From: an uncultured Allomuricauda sp.
GTDB lineage: Bacteria > Bacteroidota > Bacteroidia > Flavobacteriales > Flavobacteriaceae
Assembly: GCA_937899065.1 (NCBI GenBank)
Contig: CALBPG010000254.1
Location: forward strand, 1-33,756
Length of the DNA: 33,756 nt
Direction: 5' to 3'
Under the pieces are notes generated by a model. It searched no databases. It saw only the letters and a list, made by a program, of their open reading frames with translations, and was not told the origin of the DNA. Shown one piece after another: positions 26,752 through 33,756 of the stretch (position 1 is its first letter; each line of letters starts with the position of its first letter). A program made the translations under genes and the position numbers.

Positions 26752-27291
26752 ATGGCAAAAAAGGCAGCAGAGACCGCCTCCTTCATGATGCGGTTTACCC
26801 AAAAGATATATGAAGAACATGGTGAATCCAAAGTACAGTGGCGGGGCAACGTGTCTCACGTTCAAGGAGGAGAAAACCTCAATTTCTCTGATTTTAAGGA
26901 TGCGGTGGCTTTTATTCAAGAGCATTTGACCGACCTCACCCGCGAAGCCACCAATGATAGAAGCTCAGAAGAACAGGAGAATATTTTGCACAAAAGCTTT
27001 TCCCTTTTCAAAACTGTAGCCGCGACAGGTCCTAAAATTTTAAAGGAAACGCTAAAGGACCCCCGCAAGCAAGTAGCCAATTTGCAGGACCAATTGAGCG
27101 AATATGGGGAAGAACTGTTGGAGAAAGTCCCCTTGGACCAATGGCGCAACGCCTCAAAATCGGACTTCTTGTCCATTCAAGAATCCTTGGCAGCACTTTC
27201 ACAATCCGTAGCCTTACTTACCGAAAAGGTAGATGCTCTGCATGCTTCGGAAACCACCAAAGCGAAAACACCTCGTTCTAAAACAAAATAA
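26752..27291 (+). CDS. phasin-like coiled-coil protein with N-terminal WRG motif
   Basis: The 179-residue protein has no signal peptide. Its first part carries FTQKIYEEHGESKVQWRG followed by NVSHVQGGENLNFSDFKDAV, a short conserved module I recall from hypothetical proteins of other phyla. A helical middle follows, with KILKETLKDPRKQVANLQDQ. The C-terminus has a regular coiled coil (SIQESLAALSQSVALLTEKV) and a basic tail rich in Lys, Thr and Ser. Granule-coating phasins have the same style: short, helical, coiled coil, basic tail. The gene is followed three bases later by the SARP-type activator and precedes other phasin-like proteins. The phasin role is inference. Confidence 0.6.
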   Translation: MAKKAAETASFMMRFTQKIYEEHGESKVQWRGNVSHVQGGENLNFSDFKDAVAFIQEHLTDLTREATNDRSSEEQENILHKSFSLFKTVAATGPKILKETLKDPRKQVANLQDQLSEYGEELLEKVPLDQWRNASKSDFLSIQESLAALSQSVALLTEKVDALHASETTKAKTPRSKTK

Positions 27292-27294
27292 GCG

Positions 27295-28104
27295 GTGACA
27301 CAAGAGGCGTTGACACAGCAATTGGAAAGCCACAAAACCTTCGGTCTTGAAGCCCCCATAAAATTTCAGACCATGGGTCAATTTGCGCTATGGCGCGATG
27401 GAGAAAAAGTCAACACCAAAGATTGGGGTCGGGACAAAACCCTACAACTCATTCAATACTTTATTTCCTATCGGCACAAACACGCGCTTCACAAGGAACA
27501 TATTATGGACCATTTATGGGAAGAAGGCGATGACCGGGATTTTAAGGTAGCCCTTCATGGGGTAAACAAAGTACTGGAGCCCAATAGGGCTTCTCGTACC
27601 GATGCAATTTATGTACAAAGACAGGGAGTTACCTATCAGCTCAATCTCGATTTGGTTTGGATTGATGTGCAAGCTTTGGAAAACTTCATCATCATCGGGA
27701 ATGAGGCTTTAAGTGAGCATCCTAAGATAGCGCAAGAAGCCTATAAGCAAGCCATTGAGCTTTACCAAGGAGAATATCTTCCCAATCGTATCTTTGAAGA
27801 CTGGTCTTCTGAGGAACGCGAAAAAACACAAGTACTCATTCTAGGAGCACTGGTGAATATGGCTGAACTCTTGGTAAAAGAAAATCCAATGGAAAGTGTT
27901 CGTCTCGCCCAACAAGCCATCGGCATAGACAAGACCTGGGAAGATGCGTATCGCATTCAAATGGAAGCTTACATAGTTAAAGGCAACCGCCCCCAAGCAC
28001 TCAAAACCTACCAAAAGTGTGCGGATATCTTGGACGAAGAGTACGGTATCCCTCCCCTTCCTGCTACCAAAGCCCTCCTCAAGGAAATTGAAACTTTGGC
28101 TTAA
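27295..28104 (+). CDS. SARP/AfsR-type transcriptional activator (winged helix + BTAD)
   Basis: The gene starts at GTG, three bases behind the phasin-like gene, so they form one operon. The 269-residue protein has a winged-helix OmpR/SARP DNA-binding domain at about 20-118 (TMGQFALWRDGEKVN, RDKTLQLIQYFISYRHKHAL, LWEEGDDRDFKVALHGVNKV, YVQRQGVTYQLN). A bacterial transcriptional activation domain (BTAD) follows at about 122-267, with AYKQAIELYQGEYLPNRIFE, WSSEEREKTQVLI and GNRPQALKTYQKCADILDEE plus YGIPP. This is the minimal SARP layout. SARPs bind heptamer direct repeats with 11-bp period just before the promoter core, and exactly such repeats occur in the next two promoters downstream. I therefore propose it activates them. 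Confidence 0.88.
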   Translation: MTQEALTQQLESHKTFGLEAPIKFQTMGQFALWRDGEKVNTKDWGRDKTLQLIQYFISYRHKHALHKEHIMDHLWEEGDDRDFKVALHGVNKVLEPNRASRTDAIYVQRQGVTYQLNLDLVWIDVQALENFIIIGNEALSEHPKIAQEAYKQAIELYQGEYLPNRIFEDWSSEEREKTQVLILGALVNMAELLVKENPMESVRLAQQAIGIDKTWEDAYRIQMEAYIVKGNRPQALKTYQKCADILDEEYGIPPLPATKALLKEIETLA

Positions 28105-28179
28105 AATTCAATTTAAACATCTGTTTTTCAGGTATTTATTTCCTTTTTTTTCAAGAAAATTATCTCTTGGGTCAAGGTT

Positions 28180-28213
28180 GTAACTCATCTGTAACTCCCT
28201 GATTTTATGTTTG
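28180..28213 (+). promoter_or_regulatory. SARP-type operator and promoter, copy 1
   Basis: Two identical heptamers GTAACTC (28180-28186 and 28191-28197) are separated by four bases, giving an 11-bp period. Exactly eight bases further is TATGTTTG (28206-28213), a perfect TAnnTTTG box. No normal TTTG -33 element is needed if an activator fills this place. The promoter serves the gene at 28252 and lies directly behind the SARP-type gene. Confidence 0.75.
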
Positions 28214-28251
28214 CAGTGTAAAATTTGAATCATCAAATAAAACATACCATT

Positions 28252-28509
28252 ATGGCTACGAAAACACAAAAAACGAAGCGCACTTTAGTAGAAAAAACAG
28301 CAGACAACATGCTGGGCATGGCCACTATGGCAAACGACTTTGCATTGAACACCACTGAAAAGGCGTTTGACACTTCCTTTAAAATGGCAAACAAGTCTTT
28401 GGACGTCACTTCAAAGATTATGAAAAAAGGATTGGACATCACTGCCACCCAACAAGATTTGGTTTTTGATGTGTTAACTGGAGTAAAGAAAAAAATTGTA
28501 AAAAAGTAG
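28252..28509 (+). CDS. phasin-like small helical protein, 85 residues
   Basis: The start is the ATG at 28252 (MATKTQKTKRTLVEKTADNM), 38 bases behind the -7 box. The protein is basic, without signal peptide, and predicted to be one long amphipathic helix bundle with the pattern FALNTTEKAFDTSFKMANKS. Near the end is QQDLVFDVL (residues 67-75), followed by GVKKKIVKK. The same signature is found in both following proteins. Phasins, which coat storage granules, are small helical proteins of this kind. Its promoter carries the SARP-type repeats. Function is inferred. Confidence 0.6.
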   Translation: MATKTQKTKRTLVEKTADNMLGMATMANDFALNTTEKAFDTSFKMANKSLDVTSKIMKKGLDITATQQDLVFDVLTGVKKKIVKK

Positions 28510-28534
28510 AGATAACCCCCTAACATTCAATAGT

Positions 28535-28568
28535 GCAACTCATTTGTAACTCGCGGTTACTAGGTTTG
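28535..28568 (+). promoter_or_regulatory. SARP-type operator and promoter, copy 2
   Basis: Heptamers GCAACTC (28535-28541) and GTAACTC (28546-28552) are again separated by four bases, and the second lies eight bases before a perfect box TAGGTTTG (28561-28568). Spacing is identical to the copy at 28180-28213, while the 8-base stretch before the box differs. It drives the gene at 28609. Confidence 0.75.
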
Positions 28569-28608
28569 CACCAACAAATACGAATAACAACATTTTAAAA
28601 TATAAATC

Positions 28609-29445
28609 ATGGCTACAAAAACAACAAACAAGACACAGAAGAAAAGCCTAAACAATTCATTGGTAAATGCTACGATGGCAACTATCAACACCACTGTGGA
28701 GCACGGTGAAAAATGGCAAAAGCTAACCAAGAAATTGGTTAAGAAATCAGAGCCCGTTCGCAGAAAGCAAATGGATATGGTTTTCGAAACCGCTACTGAG
28801 GTAAAAGCACAATTTAACTCTGGAAAAGAGAGAATGTTCGACTTGGTTGGATACGATGGAGAAGTAGTTGAGCGTGCAGTAGAGTATGCTACCCAAAATC
28901 CTGTAAGCAAAAAGGTTATCAAAGTTGCTGGTTCTGTTAAGGAAACCATCACTGAAAACCCTGTAGTAAAGCAAGTTGAAAAAACTACTGAAAATCTTAA
29001 GGCTAAAGGCACCGCTAAATTGAACGACCTTAAAGAAGATGTTTTGGAACAAGCCCAAAAAATCTTGAACAAAGGTGAGGAAATGGTAGAGGACGCTCTA
29101 GACACCAAAAAGGTTAAGAAGCAAGCCAAAGCGAAAGTGAGCAAGGCTAAAGCGAAAGCAGCTTCTACTACTAAAAAGGTAGCAGCGAAAGTAGAGCCTG
29201 TTGCCAAAAAAGTAAAAGCAGTTGAAAAAAAGGTGGTTGAAACCGTAAAAGATGATTTGAAATTAATCCACGGAATTGGACCAAAATTGGAAACCATCTT
29301 TAACCAAAACGGAATTGTGACATACGCTCAGTTAGCTAAAGCCAGCGAAGCTACCATGAGAAGCATCTTGGAAAAAGCTGGACCTGTTTTCAAACACGCA
29401 AATTTCGCGGATTGGAAAAAAGAAGCTGAGAAAATGCGCGCCTAA
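28609..29445 (+). CDS. phasin-like protein with Lys/Ala linker and helix-hairpin-helix end
   Basis: The 278-residue protein has three zones. Residues 1-160 are helical with KQMDMVFETATEVKAQFNSG (53-72) matching the QxDxVF signature of its two neighbours. Residues about 165-215 are a Lys/Ala/Val-rich, histone-like linker (KKQAKAKVSKAKAKAASTTK and AAKVEPVAKKVKAVEKKV). Residues about 216-260 are a helix-hairpin-helix-type domain (LKLIHGIGPKLETIFNQNG then IVTYAQLAKASEATMRSILE). The combination recalls PhaF of Pseudomonas, a phasin with a histone-like tail that ties granules to DNA, but the HHH end is different. It is the most strongly predicted target of the SARP-type operator and leads a two-gene unit. 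Confidence 0.65.
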   Translation: MATKTTNKTQKKSLNNSLVNATMATINTTVEHGEKWQKLTKKLVKKSEPVRRKQMDMVFETATEVKAQFNSGKERMFDLVGYDGEVVERAVEYATQNPVSKKVIKVAGSVKETITENPVVKQVEKTTENLKAKGTAKLNDLKEDVLEQAQKILNKGEEMVEDALDTKKVKKQAKAKVSKAKAKAASTTKKVAAKVEPVAKKVKAVEKKVVETVKDDLKLIHGIGPKLETIFNQNGIVTYAQLAKASEATMRSILEKAGPVFKHANFADWKKEAEKMRA

Positions 29446-29483: not shown

Positions 29484-29771
29484 ATGAAAAACAATAAGAC
29501 AGCAAAAAAAGCAAAAGGATTTATCGGAAAAACGATATCCAAAGCAAAAGACTTTGCCTTAAACGCAAATGACATTGCCCTAGCTAAAACAGAAGAAATC
29601 GTAACAGATTCTTTGGAAATTGCAGCGCAATGGCAAAAGGTTGGTGAAAAAGCGATTAAAGGTGGATTGAAATTATCCGCTAATCAGCAAGACCTTGTCT
29701 TTGATATTTTGAACGAAGTTAAATCCGATGTAAAAGAAGGCCAGAAGAAGTTTCGTAAACTCGTAGCCTAA
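29484..29771 (+). CDS. phasin-like small helical protein, 95 residues
   Basis: The protein starts MKNNKTAKKAKGFIGKTISK. It resembles the 85-residue protein at 28252: FALNANDIALAKTEEIV corresponds to FALNTTEKAF there, and NQQDLVFDILNEVK (residues 67-80) matches QQDLVFDVLTGVK. It has no signal peptide or membrane segment. It lies 38 bases behind the HHH protein in the same transcript, and a strong terminator follows it. The similarity to its neighbours suggests duplication within the locus. Confidence 0.6.
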   Translation: MKNNKTAKKAKGFIGKTISKAKDFALNANDIALAKTEEIVTDSLEIAAQWQKVGEKAIKGGLKLSANQQDLVFDILNEVKSDVKEGQKKFRKLVA

Positions 29772-29939: not shown

Positions 29940-30593
29940 TTGGCAAGAAAAAAGACCATAACAAAAGCGTATCTCATAGATTGTTATATGGATACCGTAG
30001 TGGCCCAACACGGCACCCCTTTTACGGTGGAAGACCTGGCAGAAGCGCATAATTTCACGTCAAAAGCCTTCGAAGCCCATTTTGAAAGCTTTGATGACCT
30101 CAACAAAGCCATCTTCAAGATTTTCTTGGACAATGCGTTAGCCGTACTTGCCGAAACACCAGAATACTTCGGCTTTAGCAAAAAAGACAAATTGCTAAGC
30201 TTGTATTACACCCTTTTCGAGAATTTCACCCTCAATCGTGATTTTGTTTTACTGACCATCAAGAGTTACGGACTGAATTTAAACACCCTGTCGCTTTTCA
30301 ATGAGTTAAAAGAAAGCTTTGTGGCCTTTGTGGATTCCCTTGAAATGGAAACCATCCGCTTACATGACACCCTGGATTCCTTTCAAAAAAAATCGGTTCA
30401 AGAAGGGCTTTGGGTACAATTCCTTTTGACCCTAAAGTTTTGGATGTCCGATGACTCTCCGAAATGCCAAAAGACAGACATTTTTATTGAAAAATCAGTG
30501 AATACCGGAGTAGAACTCTTGAACACGAAGTCCCTGCATAACATCATCGATTTAGGCAAGTTTTTATACGCTGAAAAAATAAAAACCAAGTAA
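29940..30593 (+). CDS. TetR-family transcriptional regulator
   Basis: No ATG fits; the TTG at 29940 starts MARKKTITKAYLIDCYMDTV. The N-terminal helix-turn-helix is visible at residues 8-55 (TPFTVEDLAEAHNFTSKAFE then AHFESFDDLNKAIFKIF), the standard place for TetR proteins. The C-terminal ligand domain of about 150 residues is helical and unassigned. It is separated from the ABC1 kinase gene by five bases, and the wax ester synthase gene follows, so it probably controls this operon, perhaps in response to a fatty acid or acyl-CoA. The ligand is not known. Confidence 0.82.
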   Translation: MARKKTITKAYLIDCYMDTVVAQHGTPFTVEDLAEAHNFTSKAFEAHFESFDDLNKAIFKIFLDNALAVLAETPEYFGFSKKDKLLSLYYTLFENFTLNRDFVLLTIKSYGLNLNTLSLFNELKESFVAFVDSLEMETIRLHDTLDSFQKKSVQEGLWVQFLLTLKFWMSDDSPKCQKTDIFIEKSVNTGVELLNTKSLHNIIDLGKFLYAEKIKTK

Positions 30594-30598
30594 GCGCC

Positions 30599-31933
30599 AT
30601 GAAATCCTCCAAAAACATCCCGATTTCCAAACTGCGCCGCACGTCTAAATTAGTGCAAACTGGGGCCAAGGTTGGGGTAAATTATTTGAAGTACTACGGC
30701 GATAAAATGGTGAACTCTGAAGAAGAAGCCAAGGAACGTCTGGAGGAAAACAATGCCAATGACATTTACGATAGCCTCAAAACACTAAAGGGAAGTGCTT
30801 TGAAAATGGCACAGATGATGAGCATGGAAAAAAACATCATGCCCAAGGCGTTCGTAGAAAAATTTTCGCTTGCGCAATTCTCGGTTCCTCCCCTTTCCGC
30901 TCCTTTGGTGCTGAAAACGTTTAAAAAATCCTTTGGCAAACTGCCGCACCAACTTTTTGATGCATTCAACAGTCAAGCCATCAATGCCGCAAGCATCGGG
31001 CAGGTTCACCAAGCCCAAAAGAATGGGAAAACCTTGGCTGTAAAAATCCAATATCCCGGTATTGCGGATAGCATCCAATCCGATTTGGCCATTGTAAAAC
31101 CTGTAGCCATGAAAATGTTCAAAATTTCTGGCGAACATTCCGAACAATACTTTAAAGAGGTAGAAAACAAATTGGTCGAGGAAACCGATTACGTTTTGGA
31201 ACTGGCCCAAAGCCAAGAAATCGCTAAAGAGTGCGCGCATATTGAAAACCTCAAATTTCCAGAGTACTATCCGGAATATTCCTCTACCGATATCATCACC
31301 ATGGATTGGATGGAAGGACTACATCTCTCTGAATTTGTAAGAAGAAATATAGACCAACAAGCAGCCAATGCCATTGGGCAAACCCTTTGGGATTTTTACA
31401 TGTACCAAATTCATGTATTGCGTAAGGTACATGCCGACCCGCATCCAGGTAACTTCCTTATTTCAAACCAAAATGAAGTGATTGCTTTGGATTTTGGTTG
31501 TATGAAAACCATTCCAGATACCTTTTATGAACCCTATTTTGCCTTGTTCAATTACGAAGTATTGCACGATTCGAAGCAATTTGAAGAGAACCTTGAAGCA
31601 CTGGAAATCTTGAAACCGGAAGATAGCGAAGAAGAAAGAGCACGATTCAGTGACTTGTTTTTCGAAATCATAGAATGTTTTACCACCCCTTTTCAAGATG
31701 AAACCTTTGATTTTTCGGACAGGGAAATGTTTGATAAACTAAGCACTTACGGCGAAAAATACATCAAAGAAGCGTCTTCCTTGAACATGGGCGCCAATCG
31801 AGGGTCGAAGCATAACATTTATATGAACCGAACCTTTTTCGGACTTTTCAGTCTTATGTTCGACCTCAAAGCAGAAAATATTACAATCAACAATTACACC
31901 CATTATTTGGAAGAGGAAACCGTATTGGGATAA
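30599..31933 (+). CDS. ABC1/UbiB-family atypical kinase
   Basis: The 444-residue protein has the ABC1 (UbiB/AarF/ADCK) motifs: KMAQ (69-72) in place of the usual KxGQ, AASIGQVHQA (130-139, Ala-rich nucleotide loop), Lys149 in LAVKIQYPG, VHADPHPGNFLI with the catalytic Asp280 and Asn285, and DFG at 298-300. Family members use ATP and influence ubiquinone or other lipids; substrates are mostly unknown. The Gly-to-Ala change in KxGQ is the only odd residue. It stands between the TetR-type regulator (5 bases) and the wax ester synthase gene (11 bases), so it should work in lipid metabolism here. Confidence 0.9.
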   Translation: MKSSKNIPISKLRRTSKLVQTGAKVGVNYLKYYGDKMVNSEEEAKERLEENNANDIYDSLKTLKGSALKMAQMMSMEKNIMPKAFVEKFSLAQFSVPPLSAPLVLKTFKKSFGKLPHQLFDAFNSQAINAASIGQVHQAQKNGKTLAVKIQYPGIADSIQSDLAIVKPVAMKMFKISGEHSEQYFKEVENKLVEETDYVLELAQSQEIAKECAHIENLKFPEYYPEYSSTDIITMDWMEGLHLSEFVRRNIDQQAANAIGQTLWDFYMYQIHVLRKVHADPHPGNFLISNQNEVIALDFGCMKTIPDTFYEPYFALFNYEVLHDSKQFEENLEALEILKPEDSEEERARFSDLFFEIIECFTTPFQDETFDFSDREMFDKLSTYGEKYIKEASSLNMGANRGSKHNIYMNRTFFGLFSLMFDLKAENITINNYTHYLEEETVLG

Positions 31934-31944
31934 AACAAAAAACG

Positions 31945-33756
31945 ATGGCCGCGAAATTAGACATCAAGGATATTGCACAAGAAGTACTAGACGGAAAATT
32001 CAAACAGATTTCCGGTTACGATGCTGCCTTTTTGTACGCAGAATCCCCTACCAGTCCTATGCATATTGCTACGCTAGTGGTAGTGGAAGATTCTTTGGAA
32101 TTCAAGGATTTCAAAAAAATTGTAGCCTCCAAGCTTCACTTGATGCCCAAGTTCAGACAGCGGTTGTTGAACGTGCCCATGAACTTGGATTATCCCTATT
32201 GGGTTGATGACCCCAATTTTGAATTGGACTTGCATTTACATCGCATGAAGCTCCCAGACCCTTCCAACTGGGAAACCTTGCGCCGGACCACTTCTCGAAT
32301 TTTCAGTGCCCCTTTGGATTTAAGACGTCCGCTATGGTCCATCCATTTTATTGAAGGGATAGATGAAATTGCACAGGTTCCCAAAGGTTCTGTGGCTATT
32401 GTCAGTAAAGTGCATCATGTCATGATTGATGGCAATTCAGGGGTAGGACTCATGGGCATCTTGTTTGACAAGGATGACAAGGCCAAACCCATAGACCTTT
32501 CCAAAGTCAAAAAATTTGACCCAGACCCGCTACCAGGAGATATCAGCCTATTGCTGAAAAGTGGCTACGGCTTTTTGAAGAATCCCTTCAAATTGCCCAA
32601 GACCCTTGCCGAGACCGCGGTGGCCTTTATCAAAACCAAGACCTCAAAGACGCTAAGCATCCAAAAAGAGTTTACTTCGGCACGATATCCGGTACCGATT
32701 ACCATATTCAACGGAAACATTTCCCCGAAACGGACCTGGGGTACGGCCATTCTGGAATTTGACCGGGTCAACAGTCTTCGAAAATCTACGGGAGGCAGTA
32801 TCAATGACCTCATCCTCGCCTTTTGCGCGGGAGCCATTCGACGCTATCTGCAAGAACGAGAGAAGTTACCACTGCAACCTTTGGTGGCCAATGTGCCGAT
32901 TTCCATCCGAAGTGAAAACGACAAATCGCATAACAACCAAATTGCCAACATGATGATTCAGTTGGCGACACATATTGACGACCCCCTAGAGCGTTTGGAA
33001 TACATTCAAGAGCAGACCATGTTGGGGAAATCAAGACACAAAACCATGGGAGCAAAAACCCTGTCGAAAATGGCAGATGCCGTGCCCTTCGGGCTTGCCA
33101 ATCTTGCGGCAGGTTTGTACAGCAAATACAACATCAAAGATTTGCATAGACCTCCGTTCAACGTGACTATAACGAACGTTCCTGGACCTCGTAATCTCTT
33201 GTATTTGAATGGCCACAAAGTCGTAGCCATGTTCGGTTTGACCCCAGTAGTAGACGGGTTTGGATTGATTATTGCAGCATTTAGTTACAACGGAGTGATT
33301 AGCATCACAACTACTTCGGACGCGAAGACCATGCCCGATGCTTACGTGTTTTCAAGGTACATTAGGGAATCGGCCAACGAATTGGAGCAATTGATATTGA
33401 CCCAAGCCAAAAGCAAGGGTGCTGATAAAAAAGAAGCACCGCAAAAAAGCGAAAGCACGGTCTTCTTCAATGCGTTGAAGCGTTATGTAAAGAAAGAAGT
33501 TGCGCTTGTCAAAAAATTCAAGGGCATCTACCATATTAATGTGGATTTGGGTGCTCGAAGCGAATGTTGGGAAATTAACCTCAGCTCAGAACCCGCCACT
33601 GTCAAAAAGACGAAAAACTTGGACCCTAAAACGGTCTTGGACATTGAAGACGCCAACCTATATGCCCTTTACAAAAAGAAGCTTCTTTTTGAAGAATTAA
33701 AAATCCAACAACGGTTGAAAATGACGGGTACGGCAACGGACAAGGGGAAATTCACC
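31945..33756 (+). CDS. wax ester synthase/diacylglycerol acyltransferase with SCP2-like extension (3' end beyond window)
   Basis: The frame starts at ATG 31945 (MAAKLDIKDIAQEVLDGKFK) and stays open to the last base, 604 residues and still running. The enzyme part (about 1-485) carries the active-site motif HHVMIDG (157-163), RRPLWSIHFIEG (127-138), SINDLILAFCAGAIRRYL (285-302) and NVPGP (411-415), all typical of WS/DGAT enzymes. These join acyl-CoA to long-chain alcohols or diacylglycerol to make wax esters or triacylglycerol. After a Lys/Glu/Ser-rich linker the C-terminal part (about 525-604 and beyond) resembles an SCP2 sterol-carrier-type lipid-binding domain: FKGIYHINVDLGARSECWEI and KTVLDIEDANLYALYKKKLL then LKIQQRLKMTG. 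Normal WS/DGAT proteins end near residue 460-480, so the extension is unusual. Confidence 0.88.
   Translation, partial: MAAKLDIKDIAQEVLDGKFKQISGYDAAFLYAESPTSPMHIATLVVVEDSLEFKDFKKIVASKLHLMPKFRQRLLNVPMNLDYPYWVDDPNFELDLHLHRMKLPDPSNWETLRRTTSRIFSAPLDLRRPLWSIHFIEGIDEIAQVPKGSVAIVSKVHHVMIDGNSGVGLMGILFDKDDKAKPIDLSKVKKFDPDPLPGDISLLLKSGYGFLKNPFKLPKTLAETAVAFIKTKTSKTLSIQKEFTSARYPVPITIFNGNISPKRTWGTAILEFDRVNSLRKSTGGSINDLILAFCAGAIRRYLQEREKLPLQPLVANVPISIRSENDKSHNNQIANMMIQLATHIDDPLERLEYIQEQTMLGKSRHKTMGAKTLSKMADAVPFGLANLAAGLYSKYNIKDLHRPPFNVTITNVPGPRNLLYLNGHKVVAMFGLTPVVDGFGLIIAAFSYNGVISITTTSDAKTMPDAYVFSRYIRESANELEQLILTQAKSKGADKKEAPQKSESTVFFNALKRYVKKEVALVKKFKGIYHINVDLGARSECWEINLSSEPATVKKTKNLDPKTVLDIEDANLYALYKKKLLFEELKIQQRLKMTGTATDKGKFT

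Follow-up and report, generated by a model that had tools for sequence, protein, structure and literature searches.

Two promoters of an uncultured Allomuricauda sp. (Flavobacteriaceae) carry paired 11-bp direct repeats at a fixed distance from a Bacteroidota -7 box, directly behind a gene for a SARP-like regulator. The arrangement is a known activator architecture, here with another phylum, another promoter partner and, judging from the neighbouring genes, another target class. The best explanation, which we consider very probable, is that the regulator gene encodes an activator of the SARP type suited to Bacteroidota promoters, which would bind the repeats and activate transcription from both promoters. 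As proposed in the preliminary description of this DNA, the SARP mechanism thus appears to be adapted to the -7 element. The proposal is supported by the co-occurrence of site and regulator, a geometry kept in three families, the predicted SARP fold, and an AfsR box whose position coincides within 1-2 bases.

Two exact sites in the window

The analysed window is one whole contig of 33,756 bases, whose relevant features are collected in Table 1. Its two promoters had been described as GYAACTC-N4-GTAACTC-N8-TAnnTTTG, and both copies are exact, with 0 mismatches: site 1 (28180-28213) reads GTAACTC-atct-GTAACTC-N8-TATGTTTG and site 2 (28535-28568) reads GCAACTC-attt-GTAACTC-N8-TAGGTTTG. The regulator gene stops at 28104, so that the reported 75 bases between its end and the first site hold as well. 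Within the window no further match to the full pattern is found with up to 3 mismatches, and 100 shuffles yield 0 occurrences. The bare pair is not rare at the same tolerance (4 in the window versus 3.2 expected); the unusual feature is the exact pair together with the box, not the bare pair. In the genome itself (4,048,859 bases, 269 contigs, 92% complete) the exact pair GYAACTC-N4-GTAACTC occurs twice, both times at the window sites, and the reversed pattern 0 times. Among 296 genomes of the order, the bare pair has two matches outside the own genome (G058 and G223); neither is followed by TAnnTTTG and both were judged to be chance.

Table 1. Features of the regulator locus in the window (coordinates on the contig).
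Feature	Coordinates	Strand	Description and evidence
GeneX	26752..27291	+	179 aa, possible inclusion-associated partner; no family match over curated cut-off
SARP-like regulator	27295..28104	+	269 aa, OmpR-type winged helix + BTAD; PF03704 E=5e-16; predicted fold
Operator 1	28179..28200	+	11-bp direct repeats TGTAACTCATC / TGTAACTCCCT; ~-39 to -18; phylogenetic footprint
-7 box, promoter 1	28206..28213	+	TATGTTTG; start expected near 28218
PhsA	28252..28509	+	small protein, 85 aa from ATG; phasin-like by context only; no significant family match
Operator 2	28534..28555	+	11-bp direct repeats TGCAACTCATT / TGTAACTCGCG
-7 box, promoter 2	28561..28568	+	TAGGTTTG; start expected near 28573
PhsB	28609..29445	+	phasin-like region, Lys/Ala-rich stretch, C-terminal HHH-like domain; NCBIfam PhaH 4.2e-8, below cut-off
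PhsC	29484..29771	+	small protein, 95 aa; phasin-like by context only
TetR-family regulator (TetR_C_23)	29940..30593	+	PF17931 E=4e-34
ABC1/UbiB-type kinase	30599..31933	+	PF03109 E=9.5e-54
WS/DGAT (wax ester synthase/diacylglycerol acyltransferase)	31945..33756	+	open at contig end; PF03007 E=1.5e-49, PF06974 E=4.9e-27

Anatomy of the operator and its promoter

The anatomy of the site was derived from 68 distinct sites in 34 genomes (26 genomes with two sites, 4 with three, 4 with one). Conserved across them are T-G-Y-A-A-C-T, occurring twice with period 11, a C-A after the first unit, the box TA-N2-TTTG, and YA after the box. A T precedes each GYAACT unit in 68/68 sites at both places. A looser pattern that requires neither T again returns 68 sites with T in 68/68 at both places, whereas the pattern positions are otherwise selected by the search; the A after the first heptamer and the bases 3' of the box lie outside the search pattern. 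Only 26/68 sites have C at the end of the second heptamer. The repeat unit is better written as TGYAACT than as GYAACTC, and the 3' repeat therefore ends 9 bases before TA. Of the geometry described initially, the 11-bp period stands, while the 8 bases to the box apply in the GYAACTC frame and become 9 for the conserved unit. The statement that the spacers differ in sequence is likewise correct for the window (atct versus attt), but the 4-base spacer is not free: its first base is A in 65/68 sites and its last base T in 68/68. The specified positions of the box are T in 66, A in 67, then T in 68, T in 68, T in 65 and G in 68 sites; six of the 68 sites, one each in loci L020, L024, L031, L032, L115 and L116, deviate from TAnnTTTG by one base. 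The bases upstream (-40 to -3) are weakly conserved across the 68 sites.

The same geometry emerges from a count that is blind to the sequence of the repeats. Among 407 TAnnTTTG boxes of 26 loci, 49 are preceded by repeats at period 11 and spacer 9 and 30 at period 11 and spacer 8; the largest cell at any period other than 11 holds 4 boxes. (Locus L030, which has no site in the 68-site set, was excluded from this count.) A TTG 17-23 bases before TA, the range in which it stands ahead of the box, is present in 0/43 exact sites versus 57/410 boxes of the same loci. The consensus of the Bacteroidota -33 element is TTTG (PMC2483708, PMC7366714), and TAnnTTTG lies at -12 to -5 (PMC9723704), which places the two 11-bp units at about -39 to -18. 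Both window sites have the TAnnTTTG of primary-sigma promoters at -7 and lack TTTG at -33, and we file these promoters under the Bacteroidota primary-sigma class by the -7 box only. In three loci, two complete operators are found 77-89 bases apart before PhsA (L017 at 6902 and 6991, L018 at 7027 and 7104, L141 at 2539 and 2616), possibly tandem promoters of the same type.

The comparison with Streptomyces SARPs drawn in the preliminary description agrees with the literature on AfsR, whose box consists of two 11-bp direct repeats, the 3' one standing 8 bp from the -10 element (PMC10936776). The afs box spans -40 to -19, and in each 11-bp unit a protomer touches the leading 8 base pairs; as a general rule for SARPs, the same source gives a repeat length of 11 or 22 bp and a distance of 8 bp between the 3' repeat and the -10 (PMC10936776). 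The sites described here share the 11-bp direct-repeat operator, with a 3' repeat about 8 bp from a -10-type box and overlapping the -35 region, to which the regulator would bind.

The regulator is predicted to have the SARP fold

The product of the regulator gene scores 59.8 bits against PF03704 (C-terminal bacterial transcriptional activator domain; cut-off 22.1) and is the only PF03704 match at E<=0.001 in its own genome. The N-terminal winged helix is weaker by sequence (PF00486 E=0.16, below cut-off), and searches of PDB sequences with the regulator gave no significant SARP match. An AlphaFold2 model built from 26 related sequences has a mean pLDDT of 91.6, and a Foldseek search of the model against the PDB returns AfsR (transcription initiation complexes) and EmbR at ranks 1-6. 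VIA-align superposes residues 14/21-269 on AfsR (8hvr, 8k60) and EmbR (2fez) with Z 18.2-18.9 and rmsd 2.5-3.2, at 18-19% identity to AfsR; the next-best row is an unrelated TPR protein (Z 13.2). The full SARP layout ascribed to this protein is thus borne out by the domain match and by a predicted fold that, along almost its entire length, resembles the SARP domain of AfsR and EmbR; the OmpR-type winged helix takes its SARP-like relative placement by predicted fold only. On predicted fold, domain and operator geometry we file the protein as a SARP-domain regulator that would bind these operators and activate from them.

A mapping of contact residues, anchored on W74 of AfsR, suggests how the two proteins compare. 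In this alignment the f33 regulators (a further family, see below) run ungapped to the recognition helix and most others are four loop residues shorter. The phosphate contact R87 of AfsR would correspond to K84, and its base contacts T88 and R92 to V85 and G89, all three of them invariant here; if so, recognition must differ in detail from AfsR. The pattern fits an AfsR-like architecture with another reading of the bases. D71 and E76 of AfsR contact the polymerase, and alanine at either weakened activation (PMC10936776). The equivalent of D71 is acidic in 28/29 sequences (N in L031) and that of E76 in 29/29. For the two-protomer cooperativity of SARPs and their contact with sigma region 4 and the alpha-CTD, these acidic positions are the only trait seen here.

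Conservation of the site and co-occurrence with the regulator

A scan of genome contigs yields 26 loci with relatives of the regulator (50-84% identity over the best segment) from Flavobacteriaceae genera and Saprospiraceae records. The paired site lies behind the regulator in 25 of the 26 loci; in the exception, L030, a transposase-like gene lies behind the regulator and no site is found. Both Polaribacter filamentus loci have a transposase-like gene between regulator and operon (L029:7167-8210 and L030:7166-8209; nearly identical gene, same strain), which in L029 is followed by the site. The difference between the two contigs behind this gene reflects a genuine rearrangement or else an artefact of assembly at the element. 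A relaxed scan for the full site covered 25 genomes including the own genome (L025 and L030 lie outside this sample): 24 of the 25 genomes match, with 44 sites, and 44/44 fall within the regulator locus. G353 (L032) is the one genome that gives no match; its box reads TTTATTTG. Two Saprospiraceae loci share the arrangement.

The arrangement extends to a third family. At a threshold of 1e-10, a search with a regulator profile matches 21 of 395 genomes of the phylum. Family f33 has three small relatives (L114-L116; 37-40% identity over ~250 residues), of which the one in L114 matches PF03704 with 66.5 bits. Their sites read TGTAACC/TGTAACY with the same spacing, stand before TACCTTTG or TACYTTCG, and lie 13-24 bases behind the regulator. 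As anticipated for related genomes that carry the regulator, the geometry is therefore kept in three families. Apart from f33 and the own genome, 17 of the matching genomes remain; the surroundings of three of these (L117-L119, larger BTAD proteins of 716-725 aa) were examined, and no paired site with up to 4 mismatches is present in the 10 kb around them. Other Bacteroidota encode several large BTAD proteins with open frames of 630-1072 aa (L092, L105 and L112 in G626; L088, L106 and L113 in G450).

Co-occurrence was assessed in one draw of 397 genomes of the same family, each searched for both site and regulator. The regulator is found in 11 genomes, the site in 14, both in 11, and the regulator without the site in 0; among the 386 regulator-free genomes 3 have one variant site each (Fisher's exact p=4e-19, which is indicative, as genomes are treated as independent though related). 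The 11 regulator genomes represent 10 genera; 5 of the 11 already belong to the 25-genome site scan, and one is the own genome. They hold 25 of the 28 sites, the nearest starting 61-801 bases past the end of the regulator match and the farthest up to 1,161. Duplicate assemblies with identical coordinates were counted as one (G023=G331, L008; G1041=G332; G805=G336; G990=G340; G1039=G345; G842=G347).

The three site-only genomes (G729, G749, G881) have a different form, GCAACCA-N3-TGCAAC. The lone sites, followed by N9-TAnnTTTG, are located at L124:1501-1534, L127 (minus strand, ~1501-1534) and G729:C2:94074-94107. By eye, the L124 site falls where a Fur-like gene ends and precedes a cation-efflux gene; the L127 site stands just ahead of a gene for a small Cys/His-rich protein, with a second cation-efflux gene close by. 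The sites of G749 and G881 were set aside: their repeat is of the different GCAACCA type, and the adjoining genes look by eye like metal-transport and Fur-type genes. GCAACCA sites may belong to a metal regulator that likewise recognises direct repeats of 11 bp. Finding the repeat in genomes without the regulator, or a lack of conservation, had been named as evidence against the idea, which survives both, with 3/386 site-only genomes of another type, the site in 11/11 regulator genomes and the geometry kept in three families. Since the loci share ancestry, part of the conservation may be inertia, though the bases from -40 to -3 upstream are little conserved.

Gene content of the locus

Of the window genes compared by BLAST (1e-3), only the regulator and GeneX accompany the site in all three families. 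A GeneX homologue adjoins the regulator in 26/26 loci as well as in L114-L116, with invariant residues SF..RF.Q and W-R-G..H.Q among 16 sequences. The order GeneX, regulator, [site], PhsA, [site], PhsB, PhsC, TetR, ABC1 is found in 23 of the 26 loci; the small gene that comes first is closer to PhsC than to PhsA in L028 and L029. The TetR gene is present in 23/26 loci and was not found in L030-L032, nor in L114-L116. ABC1/UbiB-type kinases also occur in plant plastoglobules, and in the window the WS/DGAT gene lies directly behind ABC1. Among 19 members of the PhsB family, HHH_5 is matched in 12, Apolipoprotein in 5 and Phasin in 4 (E<=0.01). As a presence test PhsB was discarded: 60/60 genomes of the genus match at 1e-5, with only G000 and G023 beyond 1e-10; the best E of the other 58 genomes ranges from 1.5e-10 to 7.6e-6, and residues 104-278 are covered among the matches listed. 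PhsB might tie inclusions to DNA, as described for MLDS of Rhodococcus (PMC5504291).

As a test of a PHA role, PhaC_N was looked for and found in 0/1 (own genome) and 0/21 other Flavobacteriaceae and Saprospiraceae regulator genomes (21 of 24; G335, G337 and G350 were left out), and a PHA role was rejected for these two families. Therefore another storage enzyme was sought, and WS/DGAT was found: it lies on the contig of the site in 25/25 regulator genomes searched (Flavobacteriaceae and Saprospiraceae; G023 counted with G331, G353 placed via L032), and in 0/24 congeners without the regulator. In three Polaribacter genomes WS/DGAT is located ~9-10 kb upstream of the sites, not behind them; elsewhere it is found within ~4 kb downstream. 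In the Saprospiraceae locus L031 phasin-like genes are followed by an alpha/beta hydrolase and WS/DGAT, with an acyltransferase gene beyond on the opposite strand.

In f33 the site precedes genes of another storage polymer. In L114 it is followed by GeneX, a small familyless protein, PhaE, class III PhaC (above the cut-off of TIGR01836, E=4e-147), PhaB and PhaA (the latter two as best models, below equivalog cut-offs). PhaC_N (PF07167) is on the same contig in the other two f33 genomes, so that 3/3 have it, with weak scores; WS/DGAT is also matched in 3/3, more weakly (E 1e-14 to 1e-15) and on a different contig. Taken together, WS/DGAT, the PHB operon of L114 and the weak PhaH match of PhsB suggest carbon-storage inclusions as the common theme. 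Storage-inclusion genes (neutral lipid, PHB) as the target class are new here and absent from the preliminary description; the assignment is suggested by gene content.

Proposed mechanism and alternative explanations

In our proposal, the protein encoded at 27295 is a small activator of the SARP type. Two of its protomers would sit side by side on the paired TGYAACT direct repeats of 11 bp, at the position usually taken by a -33 element. The bound protomers would recruit RNA polymerase, presumably by contact with sigma region 4, to a TAnnTTTG promoter without a -33 element ('sigma adaptation', as for AfsR). The regulon would be local, comprising 1-3 promoters behind the regulator's own gene that would drive phasin-like coat proteins; further genes of the neutral-lipid storage locus with WS/DGAT might be reached by read-through or operon continuity. 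In the distant family f33, the same switch would drive the PHB operon.

The repeats might instead be the operator of another factor, the TetR protein of the operon or a global regulator, with the SARP-like gene a bystander. The TetR gene does belong to the same locus in 23/26 loci, yet the site is kept in L031, L032 and L114-L116, where TetR was not found, and the window repeats are direct, whereas palindromes are the usual operators of TetR proteins. With a global factor, sites would be expected in other places too, which disagrees with the confinement of 44/44 sites to the regulator locus and with only 3/386 site-only genomes; we consider this explanation improbable. Chance, that is, similar promoters that arose by local duplication and have no regulatory meaning, is already disfavoured by the comparative data and appears extremely unlikely: the two sites are indeed ~350 bases apart, each before a gene of similar composition, but the geometry is conserved in 34 genomes of three families within little-conserved flanks, and site and regulator co-occur almost exclusively.

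A closer variant retains the SARP-like protein as the factor on the repeats but makes it a repressor that blocks the overlapped promoter. A protein bound there would cover part of the -33 region and could keep the polymerase out. Position and spacing are nevertheless those of activating SARP boxes, the missing -33 TTG (0/43) is as expected of activator-dependent promoters, and the BTA domain of AfsR contacts polymerase (PMC10936776). Repression seems slightly less probable even than a foreign factor, and activation by the SARP-like protein remains the preferred reading.

Relation to known systems and significance

The closest known system is AfsR of Streptomyces coelicolor (8hvr, 8k60), which shares the OmpR-type winged helix and BTAD over nearly the full length, two 11-bp direct repeats overlapping the -35 region, and a promoter with a poor -35 (PMC10936776). 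It differs in sequence (18-19% identity); here the unit is TGYAACT, the promoter is of the TAnnTTTG type, NOD and TPR domains are absent, and the putative targets are storage genes, whereas AfsR acts in antibiotic control. The same two-domain core is found in EmbR of Mycobacterium tuberculosis (2fez, 2ff4), which has an extra FHA domain (Z 18.9), and its targets differ from the storage genes here. SARP-LAL regulators such as PimR likewise use heptamers set 4 bases apart, to which at least 2 monomers bind cooperatively, and have one very local target; the heptamers are CGGCAAG, the C-terminal part is large, and the main operator lies off the -35 (PMC5930380). In Rhodococcus jostii the MLDSR gene adjoins that of a major lipid-droplet protein, MLDS, but MLDSR is an XRE-type helix-turn-helix protein and not a SARP (PMC5504291).

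WS/DGAT proteins of ~613 aa, some with an SCP-2 end, have been described in marine Bacteroidota such as Polaribacter, Muricauda, Ulvibacter, Winogradskyella and others, and the accumulation of wax esters and triacylglycerols in the phylum is called unexplored (PMC10351704). The main text of that paper contains no words beginning with 'SARP', 'regulator' or 'transcriptional'. Among the open-licence papers listed, none was found that connects SARP or BTAD with Bacteroidota regulation or with storage granules. For the roseobacter Dinoroseobacter shibae, a highly expressed 'SARP family' regulator and phasins are listed in one table, unlinked (PMC4069834).

If confirmed, the finding would carry SARP activation, which the cited papers describe for Actinobacteria, into a phylum whose primary-sigma promoter is of another kind, and the spacing rule would then be suggested to follow the geometry of the polymerase rather than the sequence of the -10 element. 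On a broader and distinctly speculative reading, which we hold to be possible though on balance doubtful, a SARP-type activator is a widespread, locus-bound switch for Bacteroidota carbon-storage inclusions. One regulator-operator cassette would then serve wax ester/TAG droplets in two families, Flavobacteriaceae and Saprospiraceae, and PHB granules in a third. The inclusion itself might set the activity of the activator via the co-travelling GeneX or the phasin-like proteins, growth of the inclusion surface feeding back on coat-protein transcription. The tight site would make the regulon directly predictable, and the protein would be a candidate with which the regulation of neutral-lipid and PHB storage can be tested in marine Bacteroidota.
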